The translations under genes were made by a program, and so were the position numbers. Positions 3,907 to 41,214 of a stretch of DNA of 64,000 bases are shown in pieces. Every line of letters begins with the position of its first letter. Within the stretch, counting starts at the first letter, position 1. Location: assembly GCF_013401515.1 (NCBI RefSeq), contig NZ_CP058529.1, forward strand, positions 2,294,001 through 2,358,000, written 5' to 3'. The notes beneath the pieces were generated by a model. It ran no database searches. It was not told the origin of the DNA and worked only from the letters and a program-made list of their open reading frames with translations. Source of the DNA: Halorarum halophilum (GTDB taxonomy: Archaea; Halobacteriota; Halobacteria; Halobacteriales; Haloferacaceae).

Positions 3907-4686
3907 TCAGCCGTCGAGCCGCTCCGCGAACGCGAACCGCGGCTTCACGTCGCCGACTCTCGCGCGGACCGTCTCGCCCTCCGCGGCGTCGCTCACGAAC
4001 ACGGTAAAGCCGTCGATCCGCGCGATGCCGTCGCCCTCGTCGCCGGTGTCGGTGATCTCCAGTTCCACCTCGTCGCCCTCGGCCACGGGCGCGTCGGTGC
4101 GACCCTTCGCGATGAGGTAGCGCTCCGAGGACTGCTTCCGGCTGGCCTCCGGCGTGTAGGCGCGGACGTACTGGAACTCCTCCCCGACGGCAGCGCGGAA
4201 GTCAGCGAGGTCGGGGCCGTCGAACACCTTCACGACGAAGTCGCCGCCCGGCTTCAGGAGTTCGAGCGCGGTGTCGAACGCCTGCCGGGCGAGGTGGATG
4301 GACCGGGCGTGGTCCAGCGAGTACTCGCCGGACATGTTCGGCGCCATGTCGGAGACGACGACGTCGACGACGTGCTCGTCCTCCTCGGCGCCGAGCGCCT
4401 TCCGGAGGTAGTAGCGCGTGCGGTCCTCGGTCATGTCCCCCCGGACCGTCTCCACGGTGTCGTGTTCGAGGTCGTCGATCCGCTGGAAGTCGACGCCGAC
4501 GACGCGGCCGTCCGGGCCGACCCGCTCGGCCGCGACCTGGAGCCAGCCGCCGGGGGCCGCGCCGAGGTCCACGACCGTGTCGCCCCGCGAGAGGAGGTCC
4601 GCCTCGTCGTCCAGTTGCTGGAGCTTGTAGGCGGAGCGGGCGCGGTAGCCCTGCTGTTTCGCCTTGTTGTAGTACTCGTCACTCAT
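3907..4686 (-). CDS. rlmE: 23S rRNA 2'-O-ribose methyltransferase RlmE/FtsJ with C-terminal TRAM domain; 5' end replaced by the integrated element
   Basis: The product (259 aa) has SAM motif I VVDLGAAPGGW near residue 38, the catalytic VVSDMAPNMSG region near 110, KPGGDFVVKVFDG near 145 and a C-terminal TRAM RNA-binding domain (about 200-255). RlmE methylates a uridine ribose in the A-loop of 23S rRNA. The N-terminus is MSDEYYN; codons 3-7 (GACGAGTACTACAAC) are exactly the 15-bp repeat found again at 40936-40950, where it is preceded by ATG GGT CGC AAG. The present start codon and promoter thus appear to come from the integrated element while the body of the gene is chromosomal. Confidence 0.95.
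   Translation of the reverse strand: MSDEYYNKAKQQGYRARSAYKLQQLDDEADLLSRGDTVVDLGAAPGGWLQVAAERVGPDGRVVGVDFQRIDDLEHDTVETVRGDMTEDRTRYYLRKALGAEEDEHVVDVVVSDMAPNMSGEYSLDHARSIHLARQAFDTALELLKPGGDFVVKVFDGPDLADFRAAVGEEFQYVRAYTPEASRKQSSERYLIAKGRTDAPVAEGDEVELEITDTGDEGDGIARIDGFTVFVSDAAEGETVRARVGDVKPRFAFAERLDG
4666..4680. repeat. attL candidate: 15-bp core inside rlmE codons 3-7
   Basis: GTTGTAGTACTCGTC, identical to 40936-40950, with mismatches immediately outside on both sides. It contains the palindrome AGTACT at its centre. Read on the minus strand it encodes Asp-Glu-Tyr-Tyr-Asn of RlmE, so strand exchange anywhere in the core keeps the reading frame. Confidence 0.8.
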
Positions 4687-5144: not shown

Positions 5145-6176
5145 ATGCATCCAATCGATGCGTACGACGACTGGCGGGAGTACACTGACGGTCGTGACCC
5201 CGAGAAGACAAACAGGTGTAAGGAGCAGTCACTTCAACCCCTGTTGCTTTGGCTTGATAAGAGAGGAATCGACGACTTAGACGACCTGGAGTCCAACGAC
5301 CTCCTGCAGTACATTCGGCACCAACGAGATAAAGAAGGATACGCAAACAGCACCATCCGAACACGCTGGTACTACATCCGGATGTGGTGGACCTGGATGA
5401 CCGAATCAGCGTCAATGGAGATTGACCGACGGGAGGAGCCGGAGGAAAAGTTGGACTGGTACGAAAGTCTAGAACCAGCATCGGAAGATGACCCCGGGGA
5501 CAACCCCGCTGCGGAGATTAAGATAGACAAGGAAGTTACTGAAACTACACTGAGAAAACAGTCAGGGCAGGAAATCATCTACTTCGAGAAGCCTGTCTAC
5601 GAAGGCATGGTGGAGGCATGTGAAACGCTTCGTGAGGAGCTTGTCATCCGAATCCTGTGGGATTGTGGCCTGAGAGCCAGTGAGTTGACTCGACTGGACA
5701 CAAATGACGTAATAATGGATGAGAATCGGCTCATCGTCACGAACGCAAAGACCAGGAAGGACGAGGTCGAGACACGCGACGTATGGTACACCGGGGCAAC
5801 GGCCGCACGCCTCCGGGAATGGATTAATCGCGGGGGCCGTCACAAGTACCCGACCCACACCGATAGCGACAGTCTGCTCATCACGCAGAAGACCCCTGAG
5901 TTCTCCCCTGTAATGGTCAGGAAGACGGTGTATGAGGTTGCAGACCGGGCAGAAGTACAGGAGGACCTGGAGCCGAACCAACGAGGGAAGAACCAGAAGA
6001 GGATATTCCCACATGCCTTCAGGCACAGTTACGCTGTCAACCGGGTGAAGAACGGGATGCCGTTACCGTACCTCAAGCGACTGATGGGACATGCGAGCGT
6101 CGACATCACGGAGGACCGCTACATTGAGTTCCGTCCCGACGACGTACACGAAGCAGAGCGACGCTACAGACCCTAA
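5145..6176 (+). CDS. Tyrosine recombinase/integrase (XerC/D-like), 343 aa
   Basis: The core-binding domain covers about residues 1-110. The catalytic domain shows Arg177 (GLRASEL), a Lys in the beta-hairpin near 202-205, His290-x-x-Arg293 (HAFRHSYA), His316 (LMGHAS) and nucleophile Tyr326 (DRYIEF), so the catalytic set is complete. It lies about 465 bp from the left repeat. It is the probable enzyme for insertion at and excision from the rlmE core; unlike most archaeal integrases the target seems to be a protein-coding 5' end rather than a tRNA gene. Confidence 0.92.
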   Translation: MHPIDAYDDWREYTDGRDPEKTNRCKEQSLQPLLLWLDKRGIDDLDDLESNDLLQYIRHQRDKEGYANSTIRTRWYYIRMWWTWMTESASMEIDRREEPEEKLDWYESLEPASEDDPGDNPAAEIKIDKEVTETTLRKQSGQEIIYFEKPVYEGMVEACETLREELVIRILWDCGLRASELTRLDTNDVIMDENRLIVTNAKTRKDEVETRDVWYTGATAARLREWINRGGRHKYPTHTDSDSLLITQKTPEFSPVMVRKTVYEVADRAEVQEDLEPNQRGKNQKRIFPHAFRHSYAVNRVKNGMPLPYLKRLMGHASVDITEDRYIEFRPDDVHEAERRYRP

Positions 6177-7854: not shown

Positions 7855-8061
7855 GGTCTTGAACTCGTGGGGCTCTCGTTGTTAAATGTACCTACGAGTC
7901 ATTTCTAGGGAGTCCGTGGGTAAAGTCTCTTCTCTGCCGTTGACCACGCAAAATAGTCCACATCACTTGTCTCTGACATCGATGAATAACGTGGGTTGAA
8001 TGGATGAGTGACACTGGTGTCGGCATTTGGGATTATATGCTACGCGCTCAACTCTTGGTCT

Positions 8062-9213
8062 ATGGTTGAACTGACGCTTGACCTCCTTGTTGACATTGCT
8101 GGGGAGTATCGTGATGGTTCGACGAGTGCCGAGAAGTTTCGAAGTATCCTCGAAGATGAGCAGACAACGAGCGAAGAGGTCGAACAGTTTCTGAATGAGG
8201 CGTTAAACGGGTCAGAGTCATACCATAATCGGGCCCTCCAAGACATCGTCAACAACATTGGACAACGTCTCGGCTTCACTGTGGAATACGGGCCGTATCA
8301 GGGGACAACAGACACTATCGGCAATGACGGTCTCTGGAGTTCAAACGCCAGTGAAGGAGACGAGGATGTCCACCTAGTCGTAGAGACGAAGAAGAGTACT
8401 GCGTATACTATCGACCCGGGTCAGGCTGGCGGCTATATGGACGAGTTGGTCGCCGAGCAGAACCTCGACTCGTCGTCGGTGTATGGCCTTTATGTTATCG
8501 GCGATGACGATGTTGATACCGTCGTGAGTACGATTCGTGGCTCAGAGTATCGCGACCATATACGTACAATACCTGCCTCGCACCTACTCACGCTCCTCGC
8601 GATTCAAGAGGAATCGGGCCTGCAACACGAGCAAATACTGAAACTGCTTCTCCCGCTGGATACCATCAATGTTGGGTCACTAGTTGAGCTGGTCCAAGAT
8701 GTCATCGAATTCCGTGAGCCTGTGCAGACTGGCACTAATGGACCGGAACAGGGGGTCGGGGGGTGGACGCCAGAGGTGGACGCGAATGCCGTCGTTGGAC
8801 AGCTGTCTCGTAGTAACCTCGAAGGCCTTGATGATGCGAAGGTTGCCATCTTCCCCTCTCGAGAGGACGGGATTCCCTTTCTAAAAGAGAACAACGCATG
8901 GGGATTTGTCCGTGTCAACCAGGACCCAGAGTACGTTGGCATGTACATCACTGGCGACGTGGGCGCCGTCACGTACGTGGCTCGAGTGAAAGAGATAGTT
9001 CCGGCTACGGAAGCGACGCTCGCACGTTCGCTTGAATCCTATATTGGTGACCAAGCCAACTTTGACCGCGACAAGCGAGTCGTCGTATTCGAACCGGACT
9101 CCCTGTTTGAGTTGTCCGACCCAATTCCGCTAGCCACACGTGTGCCCTATGGGCTCCGGTACACGGACTTGGGGTCGTTCCGAACAGCAGAAACCACGGA
9201 CGATATTCTTTGA
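8062..9213 (+). CDS. Putative PD-(D/E)xK restriction-type nuclease, 383 aa
   Basis: The start at 8062 (MVELTLDLLV) is favoured over the upstream in-frame codon because ATTATATGC lies 25-32 bp before it. Residues about 85-140 contain TDTIGNDG, then VHLVVETKKSTAY: an upstream Asp followed by a hydrophobic strand and E-T-K, which matches the PD-(D/E)xK active-site pattern. The rest includes a second alpha/beta region with no motif I recognise. Stand-alone proteins of this shape are often type IV or Mrr-like restriction enzymes. It is flanked by the Panacea-like gene and the TBP gene, and ends 17 bp from the latter. Confidence 0.5.
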   Translation: MVELTLDLLVDIAGEYRDGSTSAEKFRSILEDEQTTSEEVEQFLNEALNGSESYHNRALQDIVNNIGQRLGFTVEYGPYQGTTDTIGNDGLWSSNASEGDEDVHLVVETKKSTAYTIDPGQAGGYMDELVAEQNLDSSSVYGLYVIGDDDVDTVVSTIRGSEYRDHIRTIPASHLLTLLAIQEESGLQHEQILKLLLPLDTINVGSLVELVQDVIEFREPVQTGTNGPEQGVGGWTPEVDANAVVGQLSRSNLEGLDDAKVAIFPSREDGIPFLKENNAWGFVRVNQDPEYVGMYITGDVGAVTYVARVKEIVPATEATLARSLESYIGDQANFDRDKRVVVFEPDSLFELSDPIPLATRVPYGLRYTDLGSFRTAETTDDIL

Positions 9214-9230: not shown

Positions 9231-9779
9231 TTAGGACTTGAAAAGCTCTGAGAGCCTTGTTTTCAATTCTTTGAATGAATTCTCCGCGGTCTGTAAGTCT
9301 CTCGCCCCAGTGATAACTGCCTGCCCCGTATTGAAGATAAGCAGAACACTCTCCCCCGATTCGGGGCGATACACCAAACCCGGGAATTGCTCTGGTTCGT
9401 ATTCAGTGTTCTCGAGGCCTAACCCGATAGCGAGTGCATTCAAATCGAGATTCTGCTCTAACTCACCAGTACAGACGTAGTTTTGAATAGCGAACCATTT
9501 GTCCTCCGGTTCCTCAATAACTCCCATGTCAGAGAACAGACTCAGAAATTGTTCTCGGAGCGAGTAGGATTCATCCTCGGAGTCCGCGCCGGTGATGATG
9601 AATTTCCCCGTTCTGTAGACCGTTATTAGCGGCGCGTCTTCCTCGAATCGGAGGTACATCCCTGGATACTTGTCCGGGTCGTAGCAAGCGACCGGCTCAC
9701 CGATATCGTCAGCGAGGCGTTCTAAATCGAGTTCGACATTTAGAGCACCCGACGCGACGACATTTACAATCTCTACCAT
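9231..9779 (-). CDS. tbp: TATA-binding protein paralogue carried on the element, 182 aa
   Basis: Two direct repeats of the TBP fold are clear: YDPDKYPGMYLRF ... GKFIITGADS and YEPEQFPGLVYRP ... GQAVITGARD. The length matches archaeal TBP. The first repeat has Tyr where FPG is usual and the repeats are diverged from each other, so this is a specialised paralogue. TBP recruits TFB and RNA polymerase to TATA boxes; haloarchaea often keep several TBPs, some on plasmids. It is divergent from hsdR across a 142-bp promoter region and may favour element promoters. GAAATAAGA lies about 27-33 bp upstream of its ATG. Confidence 0.92.
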   Translation of the reverse strand: MVEIVNVVASGALNVELDLERLADDIGEPVACYDPDKYPGMYLRFEEDAPLITVYRTGKFIITGADSEDESYSLREQFLSLFSDMGVIEEPEDKWFAIQNYVCTGELEQNLDLNALAIGLGLENTEYEPEQFPGLVYRPESGESVLLIFNTGQAVITGARDLQTAENSFKELKTRLSELFKS

Positions 9780-9921
9780 CTTGACCTCCGAATCACAGTC
9801 AAATCTTATTTCAAACTACCTCATGCCTCGTCAATACACTTGCTGGTTTCCGCTCTCTGTGGGGTATATTGAGAGTGACTGTCGGAAGAGCACTTATACC
9901 CCGAGTGAAATGTAGTGAGCA

Positions 9922-12144
9922 ATGGCTGACAAAGGCACCGACCCCGAAAAAGAAGCCCGGGAGGTCATCGACACCCAGCTAAAGGAAGCAGGCTGGGTAG
10001 ACCTCGAAGAGGAGGGAGGTGATACGGGCTTCGAAAGGGAATATCCCACTTCTTCTGGTCCCGTTGATTACGCCCTCCTGGTCTCAGGGAAGCCCATCGC
10101 GGTCGTGGAAGCGAAAGAAGCCCAGAAAGACGCCTACGCTGCTCTAACCCAATCCAAACGATACGCACAAGATATCGGTACGGGAGAGAACTACGCCGGG
10201 CGATACGGCGTCCCATTCGTGTTCACCGCGAACTCAGACGAAGTATGGTTTCAGGACCTTCGGGAAGAGGCACCGCGTGAACGAAAACTCCGAGGGTTCC
10301 ACCGACCCGAAGGTCTCGACCAGTTCCTCAATACCGATTACAAAGCCGCGAAGGAGTGGCTAGAGGATAACCCGATTCGAGAGTCCGACCCTAACCTCTG
10401 GGACAACCAGTTCGAGGCAATCCAGAGCATCGAAGAGTCTATCCAAGAGAACAAGCGCCGGATGCTCGTTCAGATGGCGACCGGGACTGGAAAGACTCGG
10501 ATGGCCTGTGCTGAAACTTACCGCCTCCTGAAATCCGGCTACGTCAATAGCGTCCTCTTCCTCGTCGACCGTAACAGCCTCGGGAATCAAGCCGAGAGCG
10601 CGTTCAATAACTACGACGTCGGCCCGGCGATGAAGCTGAGCGACATCTACATCATCGAGCAAGTTGAAGACGGCATCTATCCCGAGAACGCGGATATCGT
10701 CGTCGCAACCCTCCAGGGAATGTACAGTCTGCTCGAAAATCACGACGAACTCGACATCCCGCAGGATGCATTCGACTTCATTATCTCCGACGAGTCCCAC
10801 CGCTCTATCTACGGGGACTGGCGCGTCGTTCTGAATCATTTCGACGCCCTCCAGCTCGGTCTGACGGCGACGCCGGCGACGCACACGCTCAGCTACTTCA
10901 ACGAAAATTGGGTCTACCAATACGGCTACTGGCAGGCCGTCGATGATGGTCACGTCGTTCCCTACGAGACGTACCGGATTCAGACGGGCATCACCATGGT
11001 CGGTCTCTACTACGAGGATGAGGAGTACAATCCCGAAGACCTCGAAAACAAAATCACCGTCCCCTCTACGAATCGCCTCATAGCAGAAGAGTTCCGGAAG
11101 CAATCAGGCGAGGACGAGAAGACGCTGGTTTTCGCTAAGAATGACCGTCACGCTACCGAGCTAGAGAAGATATTCAGAGAGGTCTACTCCGACAAGGACG
11201 ACCGCTACGTCAAGAAAATCACCTACACGACCGACGACCCCGACGGCTGGATTAAGCGCTTCCGAAATCAGAAGTACCCGAAAATCGCGGTGACGGTCGA
11301 TATGGTTAGCACGGGAGTTGACGTCAAACCCATCGAGAACATCATCTTCATCCGGCCAACTCGTTCCGCCGTCCTCTACAACCAGATGATTGGCCGGGGG
11401 ACTCGCACCTGCGACGAGATTGGCAAAGAGAAGTTCACTATCTACGACTGCATCGGTATCGTCGATTACTTCAGCGAGACGCCGCCGTTCAACACGTATC
11501 GCCCTGATGGGACCGTCGACGAAGAGAAGTCCGGGAAGAAGAAGCGAGAGGACCACGAGGACGACGAAATCATCGTCGCTGACGACGTTCAGGACCACCT
11601 CGAGTTCTCGGGGTATATGTTCGAGACGGAGGACGGTAAGGAGATACGGCCTGACGACTATGTCACTCACTTCGAGCGGTACGTGAGGCAGAACCAGTCC
11701 GAGATTGAAGCAATAAAGATAATAATGGAGTCCCCGGAAGCCCTCAAGCGAAAGCACCTCCGGGAACTCAATCGAAAACTTCACGACGAGCCGGAGAAGT
11801 TCTCCGAAGAGAAGCTGCAAAAGGCCTATGGGCAGGAGATGACCGATATCATCGGCTTCATCAAACACGCCCTCGGTGAAGACGAGTTCCCCACCACGGA
11901 GGACCGGGTTGAGAAGGCCTTCGACGCCTGGATTCAGGATAAGGACTTCACCGAAAAAGAGCGCGATTGGCTGAACATGATTCAGCGTCACTTCGTGCAG
12001 GAGAAGGTCATTAAAAAGGAAGACTTCAACCGTATCCCGTTTTCACGACGTGGAGGTTGGAGGTCTGCTGCGAAAGCGTTCGGTGGCGAAGAGGAGTTAA
12101 GAGACGTGATTCACGAACTTAACGAGGAAGTGATTCTAGCATGA
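9922..12144 (+). CDS. hsdR: Type I restriction enzyme, R (HsdR) subunit, 740 aa
   Basis: Nuclease domain near residues 45-75 (PVDYALLVSGK ... AVVEAKEA: D, E, K of PD-(D/E)xK), Walker A MATGTGKT near 187, DESHRS (DEAH-type box) near 290, GLTATPA near 313, and helicase domain 2 with IGRGTRT near 490. HsdR translocates DNA and cleaves it when the HsdMS complex finds an unmethylated site. It is shorter than enteric HsdR (about 1,000-1,100 aa). Its stop overlaps the hsdM start by 4 bp (ATGA), so hsdRMS is a coupled operon. Confidence 0.93.
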   Translation: MADKGTDPEKEAREVIDTQLKEAGWVDLEEEGGDTGFEREYPTSSGPVDYALLVSGKPIAVVEAKEAQKDAYAALTQSKRYAQDIGTGENYAGRYGVPFVFTANSDEVWFQDLREEAPRERKLRGFHRPEGLDQFLNTDYKAAKEWLEDNPIRESDPNLWDNQFEAIQSIEESIQENKRRMLVQMATGTGKTRMACAETYRLLKSGYVNSVLFLVDRNSLGNQAESAFNNYDVGPAMKLSDIYIIEQVEDGIYPENADIVVATLQGMYSLLENHDELDIPQDAFDFIISDESHRSIYGDWRVVLNHFDALQLGLTATPATHTLSYFNENWVYQYGYWQAVDDGHVVPYETYRIQTGITMVGLYYEDEEYNPEDLENKITVPSTNRLIAEEFRKQSGEDEKTLVFAKNDRHATELEKIFREVYSDKDDRYVKKITYTTDDPDGWIKRFRNQKYPKIAVTVDMVSTGVDVKPIENIIFIRPTRSAVLYNQMIGRGTRTCDEIGKEKFTIYDCIGIVDYFSETPPFNTYRPDGTVDEEKSGKKKREDHEDDEIIVADDVQDHLEFSGYMFETEDGKEIRPDDYVTHFERYVRQNQSEIEAIKIIMESPEALKRKHLRELNRKLHDEPEKFSEEKLQKAYGQEMTDIIGFIKHALGEDEFPTTEDRVEKAFDAWIQDKDFTEKERDWLNMIQRHFVQEKVIKKEDFNRIPFSRRGGWRSAAKAFGGEEELRDVIHELNEEVILA

Positions 12145-13547
12145 GCGAAAACGGACGGATGGATGTCAAGAATAAGATTTGGGACATTTGCGGAATCCTG
12201 CGCGACGACGGGATGCACATTGGGACCTACGTCGAGCAAGTAACGGTCCTCCTTTTCCTGAAAATGATGGACGAAAAGGAAACATTTGGAGAGGAACCGA
12301 TAGAAGTCCCTGAGGAGTGTCGTTGGGAGACACTAAAACAGAAAGACGGAGAGGAGCTGCTTTCGCACTATAATACGACCGTATTGCCTCAGCTCGGCGA
12401 GCAGGAGGGAATTATTGGGGAGATTTTCGCACGAGTGAATAGCCAGTTCCGAACGCCGGTCAATCTCCGAAAGGCTGTGCGTGAGATTGATGAGGTGAAT
12501 TGGTCTGAAATTGACACTGATGTCAAGGGAGCAGCTTACGAGTCACTTCTTGAGAAGTACGCTGAGGAAGCGAAGGGTGCAGGACAGTACTTCACCCCGA
12601 GAGCGGCTATCAAAGCAGTTGTAAAGGCTGTTGACCCGGACCATGATGATAAAATACATGACCCCGCTGCAGGGACGGGCGGGTTCCTAATCCATGCATT
12701 TGAGCATATCTTAGACAAGACGAATGAGGGACTGGACCTCTCTCGGGAGGAGCGCCAAGCTCTAATGACTGAGAATCTTTCGGGTATGGAGTTAGTTCCT
12801 GAAACACGTCGTCTTGGTCTAATGAATCTCGCGTTACATGACCTCCAACCGCAAAATTTCGTTGTTGGTGATTCCCTTGAGCCAGGTCCTCATATTGAAG
12901 AGAAATATGATATAATACTCACTAATCCTCCATACGGAGGTAACCAGAAGAGGAAACGGCCTCGACAGGATTTTATGGTCGAAACGAAATCGCCTGAGCT
13001 CAACTTTGTCCAGCATGCCATGAGTTTACTAAAAGAGGGTGGCAAGTGCGGGATGGTTGTTCCGGACGGAGTCCTTTTCCAAAGTGGACATGCTAAAAGG
13101 GTGAGAGAAGAACTGCTACGGGACTTTAATCTCCATACCGTCTTGATTTTACCAATTGGGGCGTTTCACCCATATACGAATGTAACTACTAATGTCGTAT
13201 TCTTTGAAAAGGGTGAACCGACAGAAGAAGTATGGTTCTATGACTTGAGAACGGACATTGAGAAAATAAAGAAAAGTAACCCGCTAACAATCGAACACTT
13301 TGAGGGATTCCTTGAAGAATTTAATTCTAGTGAAAAAAGTAACGGGTTCTTTAGAGCAGGCATTGAGGAAATACAAGAGAACGGATATTCACTCAACTAT
13401 AAGAAATACAAACAATTTGAGAGTGAAGAAGAAGAGATACCAGAGCCCGAGGAACTTATAACAGAGTTGCTCTCGATTCAAGAGACTGTTACAGAGAACG
13501 TGGAAACTGTACTTGAGGAACTTGAAGAGGGCGCTGAAGATGAATGA
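12141..13547 (+). CDS. hsdM: Type I DNA adenine methyltransferase, M (HsdM) subunit, 468 aa
   Basis: The N-terminal HsdM helical domain (residues 1-120, with LLFLKMMDEKE) precedes the methyltransferase domain: GQYFTPRAAIKAVV near 155, SAM motif I DPAAGTGGFL near 175 and catalytic NPPYGG near 265. It methylates adenine at the site chosen by HsdS. The gene overlaps hsdR by 4 bp and hsdS by 8 bp. Base composition falls sharply from here on, and the 3' half is clearly AT-richer than hsdR, hinting at different histories within one operon. Confidence 0.95.
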   Translation: MSENGRMDVKNKIWDICGILRDDGMHIGTYVEQVTVLLFLKMMDEKETFGEEPIEVPEECRWETLKQKDGEELLSHYNTTVLPQLGEQEGIIGEIFARVNSQFRTPVNLRKAVREIDEVNWSEIDTDVKGAAYESLLEKYAEEAKGAGQYFTPRAAIKAVVKAVDPDHDDKIHDPAAGTGGFLIHAFEHILDKTNEGLDLSREERQALMTENLSGMELVPETRRLGLMNLALHDLQPQNFVVGDSLEPGPHIEEKYDIILTNPPYGGNQKRKRPRQDFMVETKSPELNFVQHAMSLLKEGGKCGMVVPDGVLFQSGHAKRVREELLRDFNLHTVLILPIGAFHPYTNVTTNVVFFEKGEPTEEVWFYDLRTDIEKIKKSNPLTIEHFEGFLEEFNSSEKSNGFFRAGIEEIQENGYSLNYKKYKQFESEEEEIPEPEELITELLSIQETVTENVETVLEELEEGAEDE

Positions 13548-14754
13548 GGAGCGTTTACCCAAATGCTGGGAAATAAAAGCCGTTGGTGATGTCTGCGAAA
13601 TCACTTACGGAGATGGTCTTCCAAAACGTGACAGGAATGGAGGAGATGTGCCTGTCTACGGTTCTGGCGGTGTTAATGGTTATCATGATGAGGCACTCTA
13701 CGAGCAGCCTGCCGTTATATTAGGAAGAAAGGGTTCAATTGATAAGGTCTGGTTTGTTACAGAACCCTTCTGGGCAATAGACACTACCTTTTATACTGAT
13801 GTATATGAGAATGAGGCCATACCAAGATATCTCTATTATTTCTTCGAATACCTAGACCTTGAACGATATGACACGTCTAGTGCAGTTCCTAGCCTTAGAA
13901 AGGGAGATTTGCAGGAGATATCTATTCCAATTCCTCCAATTAGTGAGCAAAAACGTATTGTGCAAAAGCTGGACTACCTATTCTCACTTGTCAAGGAAAG
14001 CAGTGATGAAATTGAGCGTGCAAACACGATTTGTGAGCAGCTAGAATCCACCATATTTCTAAGTGGCGTGAAATCTTCTAACGCCACTAAGGTCAACTCT
14101 GGTGATGTTATCGAGGATTCACAGTACGGTATTTCCGAGGCAATGAATGAAGATGGACAAGGATATCCAATCCTTCGTATGGGTAACTATGATGAAAAGG
14201 GGTCAATGGATTATTCTGATTTGAAGCACATTGAACTCACAGATAGCGAATTTGAGAAATATTCTCTCAGGGAGGGGGATGTATTATTTAACCGGACAAA
14301 CAGTAAGGAGCTTGTTGGGAAGACCGCCATCTACGATGGGGGATTAGAGAACGCGGTCTTTGCATCCTATCTTATCCGGATTTATCTAGATAAAGAACGA
14401 ATTCTACCAGAGTTCTATGTCCGGTACATGAATTCTACCTTAGGAAGGAGCGAAATAAATGAAAAATCAAAGCAAGCCGTAAGTCAGGCAAATATCAACA
14501 CCGGCGAAATCAACAGTATGTCTATCCTCCTTCCCTCTATTGAAAAACAACAGAAAATAATCTCAAAAATACATTCATTAGAAAGTACCATACGGAAAAT
14601 CGATGTTGATATCAAAACAAGTAGGAAAATCCTCGATAGGTTTCCTAAATCACTGTTAAAAGATGCCTTTAACGGAGAAATGTCCTATAGTATACCCAGT
14701 ACAGTGGAGGAAGACATTAATTCCTCTGGACAAGCCTCTCTTGGTGAATTCTGA
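13540..14754 (+). CDS. hsdS: Type I specificity (HsdS) subunit, 404 aa
   Basis: Two target-recognition domains are visible, residues about 10-175 and 190-375, each ending in a conserved coiled-coil lead (IPPISEQKRIVQKLDYL and LLPSIEKQQKIISKIHSL). Each TRD reads half of a bipartite target. ATG at 13540 overlaps the hsdM stop. The gene is very AT-rich for this genome, as often seen for hsdS acquired or shuffled by recombination. Both TRDs look intact. Confidence 0.93.
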   Translation: MNEERLPKCWEIKAVGDVCEITYGDGLPKRDRNGGDVPVYGSGGVNGYHDEALYEQPAVILGRKGSIDKVWFVTEPFWAIDTTFYTDVYENEAIPRYLYYFFEYLDLERYDTSSAVPSLRKGDLQEISIPIPPISEQKRIVQKLDYLFSLVKESSDEIERANTICEQLESTIFLSGVKSSNATKVNSGDVIEDSQYGISEAMNEDGQGYPILRMGNYDEKGSMDYSDLKHIELTDSEFEKYSLREGDVLFNRTNSKELVGKTAIYDGGLENAVFASYLIRIYLDKERILPEFYVRYMNSTLGRSEINEKSKQAVSQANINTGEINSMSILLPSIEKQQKIISKIHSLESTIRKIDVDIKTSRKILDRFPKSLLKDAFNGEMSYSIPSTVEEDINSSGQASLGEF

Positions 14755-15335: not shown

Positions 15336-15992
15336 TCACTCCACTCCTGTCCACTTGAGATACAGCTTCCCCACATCCGTAAGGGAGACGTGTTTGGTAC
15401 GTCCAGAAGGGCTCCGCTCGACTAACCCCCGTTCCTCCAGCTGGTCGACATGGTAACTGATTTTCTGTGCAGACTCTCCCAGTTCCTCCCCAATCTCGCG
15501 CATTATAACGCCGGTTCGGCCTTCTTCATCCCATCTGCCGAGAGTGACGAGAAGGTCTCTCTGGAGTCCTTCAATTTCAAATGTGAGTGGTTGGGTAGGG
15601 GCTGGGAGTTCGATAACAAGGTCATCAATATCCTCGTCTTCGCCCTGCGGTTCAAGGACGTAGTAGGGTGTCGCTCCAATAAAGAAGGCAGAAGATGTCG
15701 CACCCCCTGCGACAAGATTCGTCCCTCCTGTAATGTTGATGAAGAAGTTGTCTGCGGGATACTGTTTGGCGATGCTGACAATAGTATCTACCACGCTTCG
15801 GATGTCGAATGCATCAATCAGGTGGCTTTCAACATCGTATCCAAACTCGACGAGGTCGTTTTGAAGTTTAACACCCTCATTTTCAAAAGCATCACTGGTG
15901 AGGAGACACACCTTATCGGCCCCCGAGTAGGCGCGAAGCCCACGCTTCACGTGGGAAGTGATACGACCGTGAGGGACGATGTGTATGTTCAC
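15336..15992 (-). CDS. CARF-like sensor fused to winged helix-turn-helix (Csa3/HFX_2341-like), 218 aa
   Basis: The N-terminal half is a Rossmann-like domain with the loop FINITGGTNLVAGG (residues about 84-97), the phosphate-contacting signature of CARF-like regulators; the C-terminal half (about 150-205) is a winged HTH with MREIGEELGESAQKISYHVDQLEERGLV. CARF domains bind cyclic oligoadenylates or related signals. The start ATG overlaps the stop of the HEPN-motif gene by 4 bp, and no cas gene is present. It probably senses a nucleotide signal and regulates its own operon. Confidence 0.75.
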   Translation of the reverse strand: MNIHIVPHGRITSHVKRGLRAYSGADKVCLLTSDAFENEGVKLQNDLVEFGYDVESHLIDAFDIRSVVDTIVSIAKQYPADNFFINITGGTNLVAGGATSSAFFIGATPYYVLEPQGEDEDIDDLVIELPAPTQPLTFEIEGLQRDLLVTLGRWDEEGRTGVIMREIGEELGESAQKISYHVDQLEERGLVERSPSGRTKHVSLTDVGKLYLKWTGVE

Positions 15993-16792
15993 GGCTGGTA
16001 CTGTTGGAGGTACGTAGCCTCTCGGTAATCCCTCCCTCTCGCCGACTCGTCTTCTAACTCTACGACGTCACCTTCATCAGGGAAATACCTAGCAGAATCG
16101 AGCGTAAAGCGTGTATCTGGCCCTTCTTGTCCCTCGACGTATGTCGTTACAAATCCTCGTGTTTCGTACCGATTGTGAATGAACCCATATTTTGGATTAT
16201 CACCTTCTAAAGCTGATTCTCTTCCCATTAATTCAATCTGTGATTTTGCGAGAATCTTCTCCCAGAGCTGCAGTATTTCCTCCATCGCCGTCCATGCCAA
16301 AGTGAGGAAACCTAGCAGCGACGCCTCAGGCCGATTTGTCGCCGACGGAATGCCATCTGGATGGACAATCACGACGTCCCTGTACTTCTTGAACCGGGTG
16401 AGGGCAAACTCGAATGGAATCTCTGGAGACTCCTCAAGGACAACGGCTGCATAGAGTTTGAACCACCGAGTTACATTCTCTAGACTATCATCTCTTTTCC
16501 CGTTTCGTTCAAGTTTGAAGTGGAACCCTTGGGCCTCAATGATTCCTGCAATCAAAGTTTTCATCGCGGTGTTGAGGCCGTCTGCTTCGAACCGGTCAGA
16601 GAGGACTTCCACTGTTTTCTCCTTTGTTCTACCGTACTGGAAGTCGATTCTCGTATAGAGATTCTCCTCATCCTGAGGGTCCAGTCTATCAGCCATAATA
16701 TCCCTCATGATTTCATCACATTCTTCGAATTGTTCTTCAAGAACAGTGCCTTCCAGTATGTCCGCGGTCTCAGGGGCACCACCTACGCTCAT
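15989..16792 (-). CDS. HEPN-motif protein of the methyltransferase/CARF operon, 267 aa
   Basis: No overall family is recognised. The segment FKKYRDVVIVHPDG (Arg138-x5-His144) fits the R-x4-6-H RNase motif of HEPN domains, in the context Y-R-x-x-x-x-x-H typical of that superfamily and preceded by a helix. HEPN proteins are common RNase toxins and effectors. The gene sits 2 bp after the methyltransferase gene and overlaps the CARF-like gene, so it is the middle member of a tight operon. Whether it is an RNase effector is inference from the motif and neighbours. Confidence 0.55.
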   Translation of the reverse strand: MSVGGAPETADILEGTVLEEQFEECDEIMRDIMADRLDPQDEENLYTRIDFQYGRTKEKTVEVLSDRFEADGLNTAMKTLIAGIIEAQGFHFKLERNGKRDDSLENVTRWFKLYAAVVLEESPEIPFEFALTRFKKYRDVVIVHPDGIPSATNRPEASLLGFLTLAWTAMEEILQLWEKILAKSQIELMGRESALEGDNPKYGFIHNRYETRGFVTTYVEGQEGPDTRFTLDSARYFPDEGDVVELEDESARGRDYREATYLQQYQP

Positions 16793-16794
16793 GG

Positions 16795-18870
16795 CTAGAA
16801 CACCCCCTCAAAATCAATGTCAGAAAATTCTCCCTGTTGTGCGAGATGCTGTTGTCTTTTTGCGCGGACCTGCCTCGCTTTCTCGGCGAGTTCATTGTCC
16901 GAGTAAACAGGGACGATAACGTCACTAACTCGACGAAGAGGCACGTACTGAATCGTCGCCCCCCGTGACATCGACGTGAGTTGTTGATTCCCAGGTTCGG
17001 AGGCCAGATACGCAGCGTATACTAGTGCGGCGTCCTCTGAATCGAAGCGTACGATTGCCCAATTTGAGGAGGGAACAACGGTCTGCTCTGGCCGGTAAAT
17101 CTTTCCGGGGGTCGCCTTGATAGCGACGAGAACATCAGTGGAACCCGCAACGGGCTTGTCATCCTCCACGGACGTCTTGGAATCGTCAAGGTCAGCACCG
17201 AGTTTTAGATAGGGTACATTTCCTTCCAATTCATTATCAGAGAGACGAGCCCCCCCATCAATTTGTGCAGCAACCTCTCCCAAGGAGGCCACCCTATCAA
17301 ATCGCTCATGAAGTTGGCGCTCTGCTTGTGCCATTCCAAGGAGTTCACTGGGCAGAATGGACTCCGAGGGGTCATCAATACGAACAAGTTCCGCCTCACG
17401 GTTTAGGATTTGCTCGACAGCTCGCGGTAGTTCTTCCGTGGGACTCGTACCTTCATCAAATACGACCCCCGGGAACTCCCTTCTCCGCTCGTTAGTGTTA
17501 TCGATTACAAGGATAACCAAACTGAGATTGAGATAGGGGAAAAGTTGGGAACTCCCAATCTCAATGACTCCCCGCACATCGTAATCGAGGGTGATTTTCT
17601 CTCGCAACCAAGCGCTACGGTCCGCTGCTAGAGTAGTCGTCGGTAAGATGGCAGCTAAACGCCCACCCTCCGCTAGCCGGTCTAACGCCAGTGAGAGGAA
17701 CGCCTCATGAAGTTGCACACGGCCCCCCTCGTTGATATATTCAATGACCTCATCTGAGGGACGACCCCCATAGGGGGGGTCCAAGATAATTCGGTCAAAC
17801 TCAACAGGAATCTGCGGCTGAGAATCAGCGTCAGCTTCAGTTCCAAACCAGCTCAATTGAGTATTGGGGAGTGAATCTCGCTCCTCCTGGATAGCCATCT
17901 CCAGAAAGTCTCCAGTCACGTACGTTCCCGACTTCTCCAGAAGGTCGTTGAAGAACAGGGCGGCATTATTTACGCCTGGATTAACTTCTACTCCTACAAC
18001 ATCGTCGGTGTACTCGTTAGCTGCCCTGAGAGTATAGCCCCATCCAGAAGCAGGGTCAAGTACTACTTCCTCATTGTTAATGTTCAGCAACTCCACAAGG
18101 GCGTTAGCTACTTCTGGAGGAGTTGAAAATTTCTCCCCCTCACTATCGAAGAAGTCGCTCATGAAGGTATCATCAACAATTTGACGCCGGATGTCGAGTG
18201 ACGTACTCGCAAGGTCGTAGTTTGAGAAGACAGAGAAAACTGTCCGAAGTACTGGGGAGTCGATAGGGGTTACGTCCGGGGCGTACGACTCATGGCGCTG
18301 CTGAATAGACGTGTCTACACGTGCAATTCCCTCATCAAACTCATCTCCTGAATGAAGGGAGACCGAGAGGCTGTCAGCCTCATATTTACGATAGAGTTGT
18401 TGAGCGAACTCACTTGAAATTCGCCAGGAATGTTCTGACGAAAGTTGGTCCCTTGTTCTGGCGACGAGGAACTCGAATAGGTTATGGGAACCGATTGGTC
18501 TGGGACCTACATCTGGTACATCACTAATATCTGGATAGTCCGAAATCGGGACCTCAATTAGCTCATCATGTTGGTCAATCTTGAAGATGTATCGGAGCTC
18601 TCCAGAAACAATCGCTCCAAACGGCGCGCCAATCTGCTGGATATAGCTACGTACCTGCTCAATATCCTCATTCCTTCTGTGAGAAGTGCTGAGGCTACTA
18701 TATTCGAGGGCAAGGAAAGGAGTAGTTCGCTCCTCATCTGTAAAGACAAGGATATCTGGTCGAAGAGACTTCCCACCTTCTCCGAAAGATGGCTCACGGA
18801 CAACACGTTTGGGGCCGTACTTATCCTCAAGTTCTCGTTGGACTTTGTCTAGTGCCCCGTGTTCGTCCAT
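16795..18870 (-). CDS. N6-adenine DNA methyltransferase with N-terminal nuclease-like and C-terminal specificity-like domains, 691 aa
   Basis: Residues 37-58 (RPDILVF ... LALEYSS) follow the PD-(D/E)xK strand pattern but end E-Y-S instead of E-x-K, so the nuclease may be inactive. The methyltransferase core has DPASGWGYTLRAA near 271 and catalytic DPPYGG near 361. From about 520 on there is an HsdS-like target-recognition domain (GGARLSDNELEGNVPYLKLG ... VPLRRVSDVIVPV). The layout is that of a single-chain type IIG/type I-like enzyme. ATG at 18870 has an AAATAGTG about 28 bp upstream. It is the first gene of the operon. Confidence 0.8.
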   Translation of the reverse strand: MDEHGALDKVQRELEDKYGPKRVVREPSFGEGGKSLRPDILVFTDEERTTPFLALEYSSLSTSHRRNEDIEQVRSYIQQIGAPFGAIVSGELRYIFKIDQHDELIEVPISDYPDISDVPDVGPRPIGSHNLFEFLVARTRDQLSSEHSWRISSEFAQQLYRKYEADSLSVSLHSGDEFDEGIARVDTSIQQRHESYAPDVTPIDSPVLRTVFSVFSNYDLASTSLDIRRQIVDDTFMSDFFDSEGEKFSTPPEVANALVELLNINNEEVVLDPASGWGYTLRAANEYTDDVVGVEVNPGVNNAALFFNDLLEKSGTYVTGDFLEMAIQEERDSLPNTQLSWFGTEADADSQPQIPVEFDRIILDPPYGGRPSDEVIEYINEGGRVQLHEAFLSLALDRLAEGGRLAAILPTTTLAADRSAWLREKITLDYDVRGVIEIGSSQLFPYLNLSLVILVIDNTNERRREFPGVVFDEGTSPTEELPRAVEQILNREAELVRIDDPSESILPSELLGMAQAERQLHERFDRVASLGEVAAQIDGGARLSDNELEGNVPYLKLGADLDDSKTSVEDDKPVAGSTDVLVAIKATPGKIYRPEQTVVPSSNWAIVRFDSEDAALVYAAYLASEPGNQQLTSMSRGATIQYVPLRRVSDVIVPVYSDNELAEKARQVRAKRQQHLAQQGEFSDIDFEGVF

Positions 18871-27222: not shown

Positions 27223-29100
27223 GTGGTTGACGAGTTAACGCCTGAGACTAATTCAGTCGCAGAGACACTCCCTCAACTGAACAACTCACTGTTCATCCCG
27301 TGTCTTCAACGTGACTACTGTTGGAGTCAGAAGCAAGTAGAAATGCTCTGGGACTCGTTGCTACGCGGTCTCCCACTTGGGTCCCTGTTAATATGGGAGA
27401 GAACGGGCAGAAACCGTGAAGACCCCGCCTATGAGTTTATCAGGCATTACGTCGACGAACGAGGTTATTCACACGAAGAAGAGGTTCGTCGTTACAGCGA
27501 GCGACTCCCTGACTTTCCAGAATCATACTCACTGGTTCTTGATGGTCAACAGCGGTTGACCTCGTTCTATATCGGAATATTCGGGAGTTATACTACGCGA
27601 ATCCATGGAGCGTGGAAGAAGAACGAGAGTTCATACAATCGTCGACACCTATACCTTGACCTATTCTCTGGAACGAAGGATGACAACCATGACCGCGGTC
27701 TTGTACACGAATTCGACTTTAGGAAGAGTGGGGGCCTCAACAGTGCCGGCGATAGCTTTTGGCTCAAGGTAGGGGCTCTCATGGAGGGTGACGACGAGCT
27801 CACAACGGATGCGTTTCTCAAGGAGGAGCAGTTCTTAGACGAGGTTCGAGCTGAATTTCCAACATCACTTAGCGACGCTCAGCGGTCGGACGCGATGGAC
27901 AGCGCAAAGCAACTGTGGTCGGGGGTGCATGAGCGAGAAGCCATCCTGCACGAAACGACGATTACTGACGAAAAGACTGCTCGAGAGTTGTTCATCCGTC
28001 GAAACAAAGGTGGGATAGAACTCTCTGGAGTCGACATTCTGCTTGCATTGCTCACGGGGTATTGGGACACGGTTGAGGAAGCGGGAACTCCAACAGATGC
28101 AAAAAATGAGATTGAACAGCTCACCGAACGACTCTCCGGAAACGAACGGCTTTCTGAAGAGGGATTCTCGTTCGGCAAACGATTCACCCTCAGAACTCTG
28201 CTCTTGCTTTCCGGCGAGACACCTTCTTTCAGAAAAGATGGCCGATACGACGGTGAGCTTCTCACAACGGCAGAGGACATCTTCCGTGATAACGAGTTCG
28301 AACAGGCCATTGAGGATGCGTTCGAACTCGCTGCAGACCTGGGATTTCACGATGCAGCTCTCTCCAGCAAGACTGTCCTTACACCGGTTGTCCAATTTCT
28401 CTACGAGAATGACTATGATACATCTGGAGAGAACGAGAACATTCACTATTGGCTTGCCACGTCAGTGTTGAACAGCATCTTCGGTGACATCGGGTCACAG
28501 CAAGTACTCGAAACAGCCCGAAACCATGTCTGGGAATCTGATGGAGACGAATTCCCAGCAGTAGAGATATTAGAGGACTTGAGCGGTCGCGGAGCGACTA
28601 CACATCTTGACGAGGGGGTTCTCGACCAATTACTAAATGAAGTCAGCTACCAGTCGGGGGCTCGACTGAACGTACTATTAACACATCTCTATCATGGAGA
28701 CCGGCGTGCTGGCCACGCGGAGTACGAAGTAGACCACATATTCCCACGAGGGAAGTTATCTAAAGAGGAATTCCTCAAGCAGCACGATGTCGCACCAGAA
28801 CAGGTGGGCTGGTATCGGGAGCATCGAGACCATATCGCGAATCTACAGCTCCTCCCTAATGATGGAGAGAACCAATCGAAAGGCGACCGTGACTTCAGTG
28901 ATTGGTTAGAAAGAGTGGAAGCCAGTAAAGTAGATAATTTGACCGACAAAAAAGAGTACTTCGATATCCATCGAATTCCACGGGACGAATCTCTGCACAA
29001 GTACCCGCGGTTTGAACGTTTCTTGATGGATGAACGTGGACGGACGCAGCTCATAAGAGAAGAACTGAGGCGGACGTTGCCCCTCAATAACCCATATTGA
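27223..29100 (+). CDS. GmrSD-type (DUF262/HNH) modification-dependent restriction protein, single chain, 625 aa
   Basis: The N-terminal DUF262 part has LQRDYCWS (about 28-35), LLRGLPLGSLLIWE and LVLDGQQRLTSFYIG (about 106-120), the ParB-like nucleotide-binding loop of GmrS. The C-terminal part has an HNH-type site YEVDHIFPRGKL near 505 and HIANLQLLPNDGENQSKGDR near 540, as in GmrD. These enzymes cut modified (for example glucosylated) phage DNA. Here both halves are fused. GTG start at 27223 has TTTATTA about 28-34 bp upstream. The gene stands alone. Confidence 0.88.
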   Translation: MVDELTPETNSVAETLPQLNNSLFIPCLQRDYCWSQKQVEMLWDSLLRGLPLGSLLIWERTGRNREDPAYEFIRHYVDERGYSHEEEVRRYSERLPDFPESYSLVLDGQQRLTSFYIGIFGSYTTRIHGAWKKNESSYNRRHLYLDLFSGTKDDNHDRGLVHEFDFRKSGGLNSAGDSFWLKVGALMEGDDELTTDAFLKEEQFLDEVRAEFPTSLSDAQRSDAMDSAKQLWSGVHEREAILHETTITDEKTARELFIRRNKGGIELSGVDILLALLTGYWDTVEEAGTPTDAKNEIEQLTERLSGNERLSEEGFSFGKRFTLRTLLLLSGETPSFRKDGRYDGELLTTAEDIFRDNEFEQAIEDAFELAADLGFHDAALSSKTVLTPVVQFLYENDYDTSGENENIHYWLATSVLNSIFGDIGSQQVLETARNHVWESDGDEFPAVEILEDLSGRGATTHLDEGVLDQLLNEVSYQSGARLNVLLTHLYHGDRRAGHAEYEVDHIFPRGKLSKEEFLKQHDVAPEQVGWYREHRDHIANLQLLPNDGENQSKGDRDFSDWLERVEASKVDNLTDKKEYFDIHRIPRDESLHKYPRFERFLMDERGRTQLIREELRRTLPLNNPY

Positions 29101-37766: not shown

Positions 37767-38549
37767 GTGGATAGTAGCTATCTCACTGGACCGGTTCCAC
37801 GGATAGAAGCAAAGCCTGAGCATCTAGAACTCATCTCGAAAGCGAGGACAGCTGAGGCGATGATGCTCGATTACCCTCACGCGCGACGCTTGGAGCAGAA
37901 TGGAGTTGACCTCTCTGAACTTGACGCCAAAGTCATTCTTACCTCCACGATTCCCGACGAAGAACTGGAAGAGTGGTTCCCAGAACGGGAATTGGCGCTT
38001 GCCGAGCGCATCGGGGCCGATGCTATCGTCCCGTGCGACCGTCCAGTCTATGACCGTGACTCGCGTGCTCAACGAATTGAAACAATCCAGACGTACGTAG
38101 CAGACCTCTCGGATATCGTTCCCAGGTTTCAGGCTGCCGGCGTTGAGACGGTTCCTTTGGTAAAAGGAGAAACCGAGTTCGAACGGGGCCTGTGCTACAA
38201 CGCATTCGATGAACTCGGATGTTCTAGGGTCGCGTACTACTGTGTGCAGTATTTCAGCTATGGATTTCGCTATCAGGCACTCTTAGACCGTATTCAACGA
38301 ATCTCACTCGAATACAACCCAGACAACATGATGCTAATCGGTTTCCAGTCAGAGAACTTGGTATCGGAATTCCCACCATGCATTACCGGAGTCGCCGGTC
38401 AGCGATGGTTACGCAAATCGAACCCTCGTAACGTGTCAATAGAGAAATCAGCACTTGACTACGACCGATGGAGTCGACAGGTCACTTCTGCTCTCTGTAT
38501 CGGGCAACCGCCGCTTCATGCATTCGAGGATGCACGGGGGTGGGCGTGA
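37767..38549 (+). CDS. TIM-barrel-like protein, first gene of the CBASS-like operon, 260 aa
   Basis: GTG start at 37767, preceded by a 14-codon ORF (37733-37774) that overlaps it. The fold pattern (ALAERIGADAIVPCDRPV, AAGVETVPLVKGE, RVAYYCVQYFSYGFRYQAL, NMMLIGFQSE) suggests a beta/alpha barrel, perhaps distantly like tRNA-guanine transglycosylases; there is no firm family. Stop and next ATG overlap as TGATG. Such coupling implies function with the CD-NTase. ATATAAACC at about 37691-37699 is the likely TATA box. Confidence 0.6.
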   Translation: MDSSYLTGPVPRIEAKPEHLELISKARTAEAMMLDYPHARRLEQNGVDLSELDAKVILTSTIPDEELEEWFPERELALAERIGADAIVPCDRPVYDRDSRAQRIETIQTYVADLSDIVPRFQAAGVETVPLVKGETEFERGLCYNAFDELGCSRVAYYCVQYFSYGFRYQALLDRIQRISLEYNPDNMMLIGFQSENLVSEFPPCITGVAGQRWLRKSNPRNVSIEKSALDYDRWSRQVTSALCIGQPPLHAFEDARGWA

Positions 38550-39487
38550 TGGGCACTGGAATCGCGCCGCCAGGCCATCCCGACAATCGGGAGGAGGAAG
38601 AATCCGTGGGGGCCAGTTCCGAGCAAACCTCGTTAGACGACTACGCTAACGAGACCGGTCCCACGAATCGGCAAGGAGAGACAATCAACGAACGTCGCGA
38701 GCGAATCCAGCAGATACTGGAAGAAGAGATGGATATCGTGGAGAGCCACCAATTTGGGTCCTTTACACGAGGAACGATGGTCGGCCCCCTCTCGGAAGAC
38801 TCCGATACAGACGTGATGTTTGTACTAAGCCGTGAGGAGCACGGAAAGTGGGAACGTGGAAAGAATGGTTCAAGGAACTGTTTGCGTGCGGTGAAGCGTG
38901 CGCTGGAGAAACGATATCCAAACTCGAAGGTGAGTATCGACCGGAACGTCGTGAGCGTCCAGTTCCATGACTTCACTGTAGATGTTGCCCCAGCGTTCCG
39001 AGATGGAACTGGCGGCTACAAAATCCCGGACACGTACAGCAAGGGACGCTCGTGGGTGCGGACAAACCCGAGAGGTTACAAGCAACGATTTGAGGCCGTT
39101 GATAGCGCTCGTGGAGGGCGACTCCAAAAGGTCGCTCGGGTTGCAAAAAAGCTCCGTGAGAATCGCAACATCCCCATCAGCTCGTATCACATGGAGGTGA
39201 TGGCTTACGACTACGTTCATAATCATCCGAATCAAGATGCTTCAACGGAGGAGTTGGTTGAGGGGTTCGTCGAGGAACTTCCCCGGAGGGTCTCACGAGG
39301 CACGCGGGACCCCGTCAACGGTGACCGATTGGACTCGAACATGGACCGCTCGAACCGAAAAGAAGCCATAAAGAAGGCCAAGACAGCCCGCAAGCGAATG
39401 CGGGAAGCAAGTGAGCATCGACGTAGAGGGGAGAGTGAAGCAGCGAACGAAAAGTACGGAGACGCTCTCGGGGAGGACATTGACTGA
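38549..39487 (+). CDS. CD-NTase (CBASS cyclic-nucleotide synthase), 312 aa
   Basis: GSFTRGTMVGPLSEDSDTDV (residues 70-89) has the Gly70-Ser71 and Asp86/Asp88 metal ligands, and FTVDVAPAF gives the third acidic residue (Asp145). This is the SMODS/OAS-like arrangement of CD-NTases, which make cyclic di- or trinucleotides on phage infection. The C-terminal half is helical and basic. It overlaps the SLATT effector gene by one base (TGATG). A typical two-gene core of a CBASS system. Confidence 0.85.
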   Translation: MGTGIAPPGHPDNREEEESVGASSEQTSLDDYANETGPTNRQGETINERRERIQQILEEEMDIVESHQFGSFTRGTMVGPLSEDSDTDVMFVLSREEHGKWERGKNGSRNCLRAVKRALEKRYPNSKVSIDRNVVSVQFHDFTVDVAPAFRDGTGGYKIPDTYSKGRSWVRTNPRGYKQRFEAVDSARGGRLQKVARVAKKLRENRNIPISSYHMEVMAYDYVHNHPNQDASTEELVEGFVEELPRRVSRGTRDPVNGDRLDSNMDRSNRKEAIKKAKTARKRMREASEHRRRGESEAANEKYGDALGEDID

Positions 39488-40926: not shown

Positions 40927-40962
40927 CTACAAGTAGTTGTAGTACTCGTCCTTGCGACCCAT
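40927..40962 (-). pseudogene. rlmE: Leftover 5' end of the original rlmE, 11 codons
   Basis: Minus-strand reading from ATG at 40962: Met-Gly-Arg-Lys-Asp-Glu-Tyr-Tyr-Asn, then Tyr-Leu-stop contributed by the element. Joining the first nine codons to codon 8 onward of the present rlmE restores [19 protein letters not shown], a natural-looking RlmE start. This is the piece cut off by integration. Confidence 0.75.
40936..40950. repeat. attR candidate: second copy of the 15-bp core
   Basis: GTTGTAGTACTCGTC, identical to 4666-4680. Outside bases differ on both sides. On the minus strand it encodes DEYYN inside the leftover rlmE start. Confidence 0.8.
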
Positions 40963-41000
40963 TTCCTCTCAGTAGCGGGCCGAGGCGGTTATGCGGTTCG
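40963..41000 (-). promoter_or_regulatory. Orphan original rlmE promoter
   Basis: Minus-strand CCGCATAACC at 40987-40996 lies 25-34 bp before the leftover ATG (40962), a normal TATA position. After integration it can only drive the 11-codon remnant and whatever lies beyond in the element. Confidence 0.45.
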
Positions 41001-41214
41001 TTCCGCCTCGCCCGAACTCTCCATCCTCATCGCACCATTCCACCACCCTCACTGCACCATTCTACCCTCGCGAACGTTCAATCAGGCCCCGCGATTCCAC
41101 CGTTCACCATCGGGGGTAGCTCGCCGAACTGAGCGGCCTCCGGCGGCCGTGCGGCCGTTCGTTCGGGGCGCGAACCGCGGGTATTTTGAGGGGGTCAACC
41201 GTAGCGGGTCGTAT

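Follow-up and report, generated by a model that had tools for sequence, protein, structure and literature searches.

The TbpC family of haloarchaeal TATA-binding proteins (TBPs), a member of which is carried by an integrative element of Halorarum halophilum, is encoded, at nearly all loci of its clade, beside methyltransferase-based defence systems. With a probability that we put at about even, proteins of this family are accessory regulatory modules of such systems and control the promoter of the operon to which they belong. The broader proposition, that haloarchaea and their viruses possess a dedicated class of TBP with a retooled first repeat that serves unrelated methylation-based immune systems as a portable promoter factor, stands an equally balanced chance of being correct. 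The window referred to below is the whole stretch of 64,000 nucleotides of H. halophilum DNA that was analysed.

The window TBP and the element that carries it

The product of the TBP gene (Table 1) matches Pfam TBP over two repeats (E 3.5e-44), and its AlphaFold model (AF2, built on 11 sequences) has a mean pLDDT of 92.8, with best PDB matches that are all TBPs, from yeast, plants, human, and archaea, at TM 0.8-0.9; Pfam and AF2 together thus describe the saddle-forming two-repeat fold of a TATA-binding protein. In the first repeat, DKYPG replaces FPG and the second intercalating Phe is Tyr (TVYRTG), while both Phe of the second repeat are kept. Instead of four intercalating Phe, the protein therefore presents the Y-Y-F-F signature typical of the TbpC branch, with the remaining TBP features present. 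A sequence-only reading of this DNA had described an element-borne, full-length TBP with an altered first-repeat FPG region, divergent from hsdR, and each part of that description is borne out by the length and Pfam match of the protein, the DKYPG motif, the 142 bp that separate the minus-strand TBP from the plus-strand hsdR, and the boundaries of the element.

Table 1. Coordinates of the TBP gene and associated features in the window
Feature	Position	Strand	Basis
Left 15-bp direct repeat GTTGTAGTACTCGTC (att), in 5' end of rlmE	4666..4680		Empty-site comparison with G026
Tyrosine integrase, just inside element edge	5145..6176	+	Pfam Phage_integrase 4.6e-22
TbpC-type TATA-binding protein, 182 aa, intercalating signature Y-Y-F-F	9231..9779	minus	ORF, Pfam, residue alignment, tree, AlphaFold
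TBP/hsdR divergent promoter region	9780..9921		Conserved in L118 and L120 (alignments)
TATA-like element CTTATAC, ~26 nt before hsdR ATG (putative function)	9893..9899	+	Conserved in L118 and L120
HsdR, type I restriction subunit	9922..12144	+	Pfam/PADLOC
HsdM, type I N6-adenine methyltransferase	12141..13547	+	Pfam/PADLOC
HsdS, type I specificity subunit	13513..14754	+	Pfam
Right 15-bp direct repeat GTTGTAGTACTCGTC (att)	40936..40950		Empty-site comparison with G026

The TBP and the defence genes reside in a 36-kb integrative element (4666-40950) that is missing from G026, a sister genome from within the genus. GC content is ~70% in the backbone and ~52% from about 4.7 to 41 kb, and a tyrosine integrase is encoded at the edge of this insert. 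The flanking rlmE and HAD hydrolase genes, 37 kb apart in the window, are ~1.3 kb apart in G026, where the flanks are contiguous and contain one copy of the 15-mer that is duplicated at the insert edges in the window; the alignments of window positions 3913-4680 and 40936-41009 to the empty site have 15 bp of G026 in common. The hsdR, hsdM, and hsdS genes lie in one cluster, which identifies the adjoining system, from its genes alone, as type I restriction-modification (RM). The TBP-proximal half of the intergenic region is also kept in a locus with a different restriction system (L119), and the spacing of CTTATAC from the hsdR start would imply a leaderless hsdR mRNA, as expected for haloarchaea.

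Several other genes of the window have counterparts near TbpC genes elsewhere. A second methyltransferase cassette (15336-18870), consisting of an HFX_2341-like HTH protein, an unknown protein, and a MAD2-like N6 MTase, has homologues that adjoin TbpC genes in L137 and L149; relatives (cluster 10) of a GmrSD_N (DUF262) protein (27223-29100) recur beside TbpC operons at several loci, L164 and L159 among them; and proteins similar to a 401-aa protein encoded tail to tail with the TBP (8008-9213), which has no Pfam or NCBIfam match, occur near TbpC in L178, L183, and L187 (cluster 37). The same element also encodes a SMODS nucleotidyltransferase (38468-39487), a CBASS-like candidate.

The host genome encodes two further TBPs, at C1:789791 and C1:2472351, both of which have FFFF and fall on the canonical side of a tree of 133 TBPs. 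In this tree, a quick one with some long branches, all canonical TBPs lie behind one branch with 100% SH-aLRT, giving a single change between canonical and defence-linked types, and the window TBP sits with Halobacterium tbpC and away from TBPs of the tbpE type; the missing N-terminal intercalating Phe pair likewise places it in the TbpC family. Since the host has two canonical TBPs, the window TBP is not its essential copy, and the sole-TBP case that would have undone the earlier interpretation is ruled out.

Clade-wide linkage to methyltransferase-based defence

Close relatives of the window TBP are present in 66 of 391 haloarchaeal genomes, including that of the host (E up to about 1e-43). 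In all, 74 neighbourhoods were retrieved and the neighbour proteins were clustered; recurrent neighbours, as named by PADLOC, are HsdR, type IIG enzymes, BrxHII/DrmD-type SNF2 helicases, and large DrmMI-type methyltransferases, together with BrxC, PglX, PglZ, BrxL, and HmaB. A restriction, BREX, or helicase-methyltransferase gene lies within 3 kb at 72 of 75 clade loci, as against 2 of 40 loci of control TBPs, both core and plasmid-borne (Fisher 2e-24), and both of these control loci also show altered repeat-1 residues. Within 300 bp the corresponding figures are 60 of 75 and 1 of 40, and within 100 bp they are 49 of 75 and 1 of 40. As the HMMs used to score the control panel were derived from the clade's own neighbours, the test was repeated independently with Pfam: the 61 neighbour proteins of 18 randomly chosen clade loci included N6_Mtase (9), Eco57I (9), and ResIII (7), none of which is among the 25 commonest Pfam families in the control set, 76 neighbours drawn from 18 loci (one TBP on a large contig, the others on plasmids or small contigs). 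The tie between TBP and restriction genes noticed at a single locus thus extends to the whole clade, and hsdR as a chance neighbour of the window TBP is ruled out. Forty-nine of the TBP genes follow the defence gene on its 3' side in the same direction, in many cases with an overlap, and another 16 are divergently oriented. No TFB gene travels consistently with the clade TBPs among these loci, and a co-travelling TFB was accordingly dropped as a candidate partner. Neither PADLOC nor NCBIfam has a defence model for TbpC-type TBPs.

Individual loci illustrate the range of partners. Among the TBPs read from pNRC200 of Halobacterium NRC-1, only that of tbpC has Y-Y-F-F, lacking the N-terminal Phe pair; tbpC overlaps a methyltransferase-helicase operon at the end of its helicase gene. 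An ISH27 insertion (L193 2625-3791) splits the methyltransferase of this operon, which may account for the absent phenotype of the NRC-1 tbpC knockout. An intact methyltransferase-helicase operon with TbpC is found on pHLAC01 of Halorubrum lacusprofundi, and a Haloarcula plasmid has the TBP between pglX and pglZ in a BREX operon. Among tailed viruses, the TBP of HRTV-9 (gp39) is encoded directly 3' of a type IIG enzyme and that of HJTV-2 (gp41) adjoins an N4-cytosine methyltransferase and an Eco29kI endonuclease. Some helicase-methyltransferase operons contain two TBPs (L167, L168, L171, L172, L176, and L178). One of these, in which the residues are aberrant (FFSP or GAFF, for instance), is encoded between the methyltransferase and the helicase, and the other closes the operon.

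Defence-system type, assigned by best-scoring HMM so that the labels 'helicase-MTase' and 'IIG' overlap, clusters on the TBP tree (0 of 200 shuffles as low) and switches at least 23 times. Two loci have hsdR genes 94-95% identical to that of the window and TBPs 81% (L118) and 77% (L120) identical, and TBPs 77% (L119) and 74% (L121) identical to the window's are found beside unrelated type I systems. The similar TBPs beside unrelated systems, with the TBP-side upstream sequence that L119 has in common with the window, indicate that the TBP is passed from one system to another as a cassette. Among operons of the helicase-methyltransferase family whose helicases are at least 75% identical, TbpC is present in many, absent from some, and reduced to fragments in three; frame-shifted or truncated remnants are found in L254 and L259. 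Having moved between unrelated systems and sometimes been lost, the TBP is best described as an accessory module.

Constraint, promoters, and competing explanations

The intercalating residues are YYFF in 64 clade TBPs, with His/Arg/Asn-Tyr and Tyr-Phe as other variants, and FFFF in 38 of 40 control TBPs, the exceptions being L214, beside BREX, and L211. In 52 non-redundant members selected for YYFF, in which those four columns are consequently fixed by construction, the stirrup of the second repeat, EYEPEQFPG, does not vary, and Thr157 and the DNA-contacting Asn6 and Asn100 are retained. In TBP-TFIIB complexes the two Glu of this stirrup contact TFIIB/TFB, and recruitment of TFB and TATA-box transcription are predicted, indirectly, for the window TBP from this clade-invariant motif. 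Close pairs of clade TBPs have dN/dS of 0.06-0.19, a sign of purifying selection, which together with the invariant stirrup indicates that they are functional; such constraint, as read from the sequences, argues against loss of function, and a decaying pseudogene is disfavoured. Haloarchaeal TBPs in which the repeat-1 stirrup region is entirely lost and repeat 2 is conserved also occur (L014 and L015).

Helicase-methyltransferase operons start with a gene of 63-70 aa, the product of which is AbrB-like by eye and has no Pfam match, and which is preceded by an inverted repeat, AGTCTAAGTAAAGACTATA, that overlaps the TATA box. This sequence is almost invariant upstream of the first gene in nine loci (L141, L159, L164, L165, L168, L169, L173, L174, and L176), and its 17-bp core, AGTCTAAGTAAAGACTA, is found in 15 of the 391 genomes, a single time in each and at no other site. 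Operons without TbpC retain variants of the repeat, which is therefore not evidence for TbpC binding and is ruled out as a TbpC-specific promoter box; a link with the small first gene, or with the operon as a whole, is more likely, and the helicase-methyltransferase promoters do not strictly need TbpC.

The methylation-based self-recognition common to the partners, the retained TFB interface, and the constraint on the protein make a promoter-recognition factor the simplest account. With a host TFB, TbpC would bind a TATA element by way of the C-terminal repeat, which is intact, and the Tyr-Tyr N-terminal repeat would touch the remaining half of the box more weakly or differently. An alternative initiation complex would thereby form on the promoter of its own operon (in the window, that of hsdR and/or tbpC), and expression of the defence genes could be partly freed from the level or timing of the host TBP, for instance when the genes reach a new host or a virus takes over; such control would resemble that by the C proteins of some RM systems. 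Counting against this account are the AGTCTAAGTAAAGACTATA variants in operons that lack TbpC, the NRC-1 tbpC deletion without apparent phenotype, the tbpC transcript reported as undetected in strain PHH1, and the want of a consistently co-travelling TFB gene. The sequence-only reading had proposed that a mobile TBP could steer host polymerase to promoters of the element or keep defence genes silent until needed. Its mobility, its divergence from the chromosomal TBPs, and its not being the sole TBP stand; redirection and silencing are conjectural. With the promoters TATA-like, and AGTCTAAGTAAAGACTATA kept in operons that lack the TBP, we infer, as the best available reading, that the window TBP acts in transcription of the adjacent operon.

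It is possible, though unlikely, that TbpC is instead a DNA-binding subunit or targeting factor that marks or bends AT-rich DNA and recruits a methyltransferase, helicase, or restriction complex without starting transcription. Such a role would suit partner enzymes that share methylation-based DNA recognition and the frequent position of the TBP inside the operon, as between pglX and pglZ or, along with a second TBP, between a methyltransferase and an SNF2 helicase; TBP-like domains serve for nucleic-acid binding in RNase HIII and in HEPN toxins of the RNase LS type (PMC3710099), and TBPs are present in bacterial TOTE/TALON conflict systems (PMC12458937). A pure recruiter, however, would not need the invariant TFB-contact stirrup (its residues touch DNA too), and the same operons occur without TbpC. 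A direct antiviral function, in which TbpC is a decoy or dominant-negative TBP that blocks transcription by occupying viral or host promoters or sequestering TFB, is still less probable. The one-sided change of DNA-intercalating residues with an intact TFB interface would fit it, as would the copies that two related viruses have next to their RM genes, but the virus pairing of TBP and RM enzyme suggests service to the RM genes, and TbpC is tied specifically to methyltransferase systems, to which the control TBPs, many of them plasmid-borne, are not.

The data disfavour, and we regard as very improbable, a non-functional or relaxed copy hitchhiking in defence islands, a possibility raised in PMC4230888. 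Rapid divergence (45-81% identity), the missing Phe pair of repeat 1, the remnants described above, and a tbpC knockout without phenotype (PMC2121645) would be expected of such a copy; low dN/dS with an invariant stirrup, replacement by Tyr-Tyr rather than by random residues, and repeated association with unrelated systems would not.

Relation to known systems and significance

The TbpC clade was defined in 2014 from 21 sequences, 18 of which lack the N-terminal intercalating Phe pair, and was suggested to be possibly non-functional, with gene context not given (PMC4230888). Deletion of tbpC in NRC-1 gave no apparent phenotype (PMC2121645), and its transcript was undetected in strain PHH1 (PMC4230888) and up 1.7-fold at low salt in NRC-1 (PMC1971269). 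The TBPs considered here agree with that account in their tree clade, the lost Phe pair, patchy distribution, and dispensability, and differ from it in the replacement, for the most part by a conserved Tyr-Tyr, and in the link of the clade to defence. Other plasmid-borne haloarchaeal TBPs (TbpB/D/F and TbpX/Y/Z) are likewise extra copies on mobile or variable replicons; unlike TbpC, the control TBPs on plasmids retain all four Phe and lack defence genes as neighbours.

The C proteins of type II RM systems are small HTH regulators that autoregulate and time the RM genes. By analogy, TbpC could be a small DNA-binding regulator that travels with RM genes and times their expression; it differs in being a TBP, as Pfam identifies the window protein, rather than an HTH protein, and thus a general transcription factor, whose main companions are type I, IIG, BREX, and helicase-methyltransferase systems. 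The nearest published parallel is the TBPs of bacterial TOTE and TALON conflict systems (PMC12458937, citing Aravind and Iyer 2022), which, as described there, are likewise encoded within conflict or defence operons. Going by those descriptions, the bacterial systems combine a TPR-CSD/OB protein and a TBP with other effectors, and Pfam scans around the window TBP found no TPR or CSD; the TbpC proteins are full haloarchaeal TBPs of TFB-using organisms with RM/BREX neighbours. A literature search covering journals outside subscription found no earlier account that links TBPs to restriction, BREX, or defence in haloarchaea, and TBP goes unmentioned in a survey of archaeal RM systems.

The linkage bears on the many TBPs of haloarchaea. 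It supplies a candidate function for TbpC, previously without an assigned one and suspected dead, that is testable in NRC-1, for which a tbpC knockout exists, and it adds a component for annotating archaeal RM, BREX, and helicase-methyltransferase operons. If the proposed role is true, a general transcription factor would have been turned into an immune-system regulator common to haloarchaea and their viruses.
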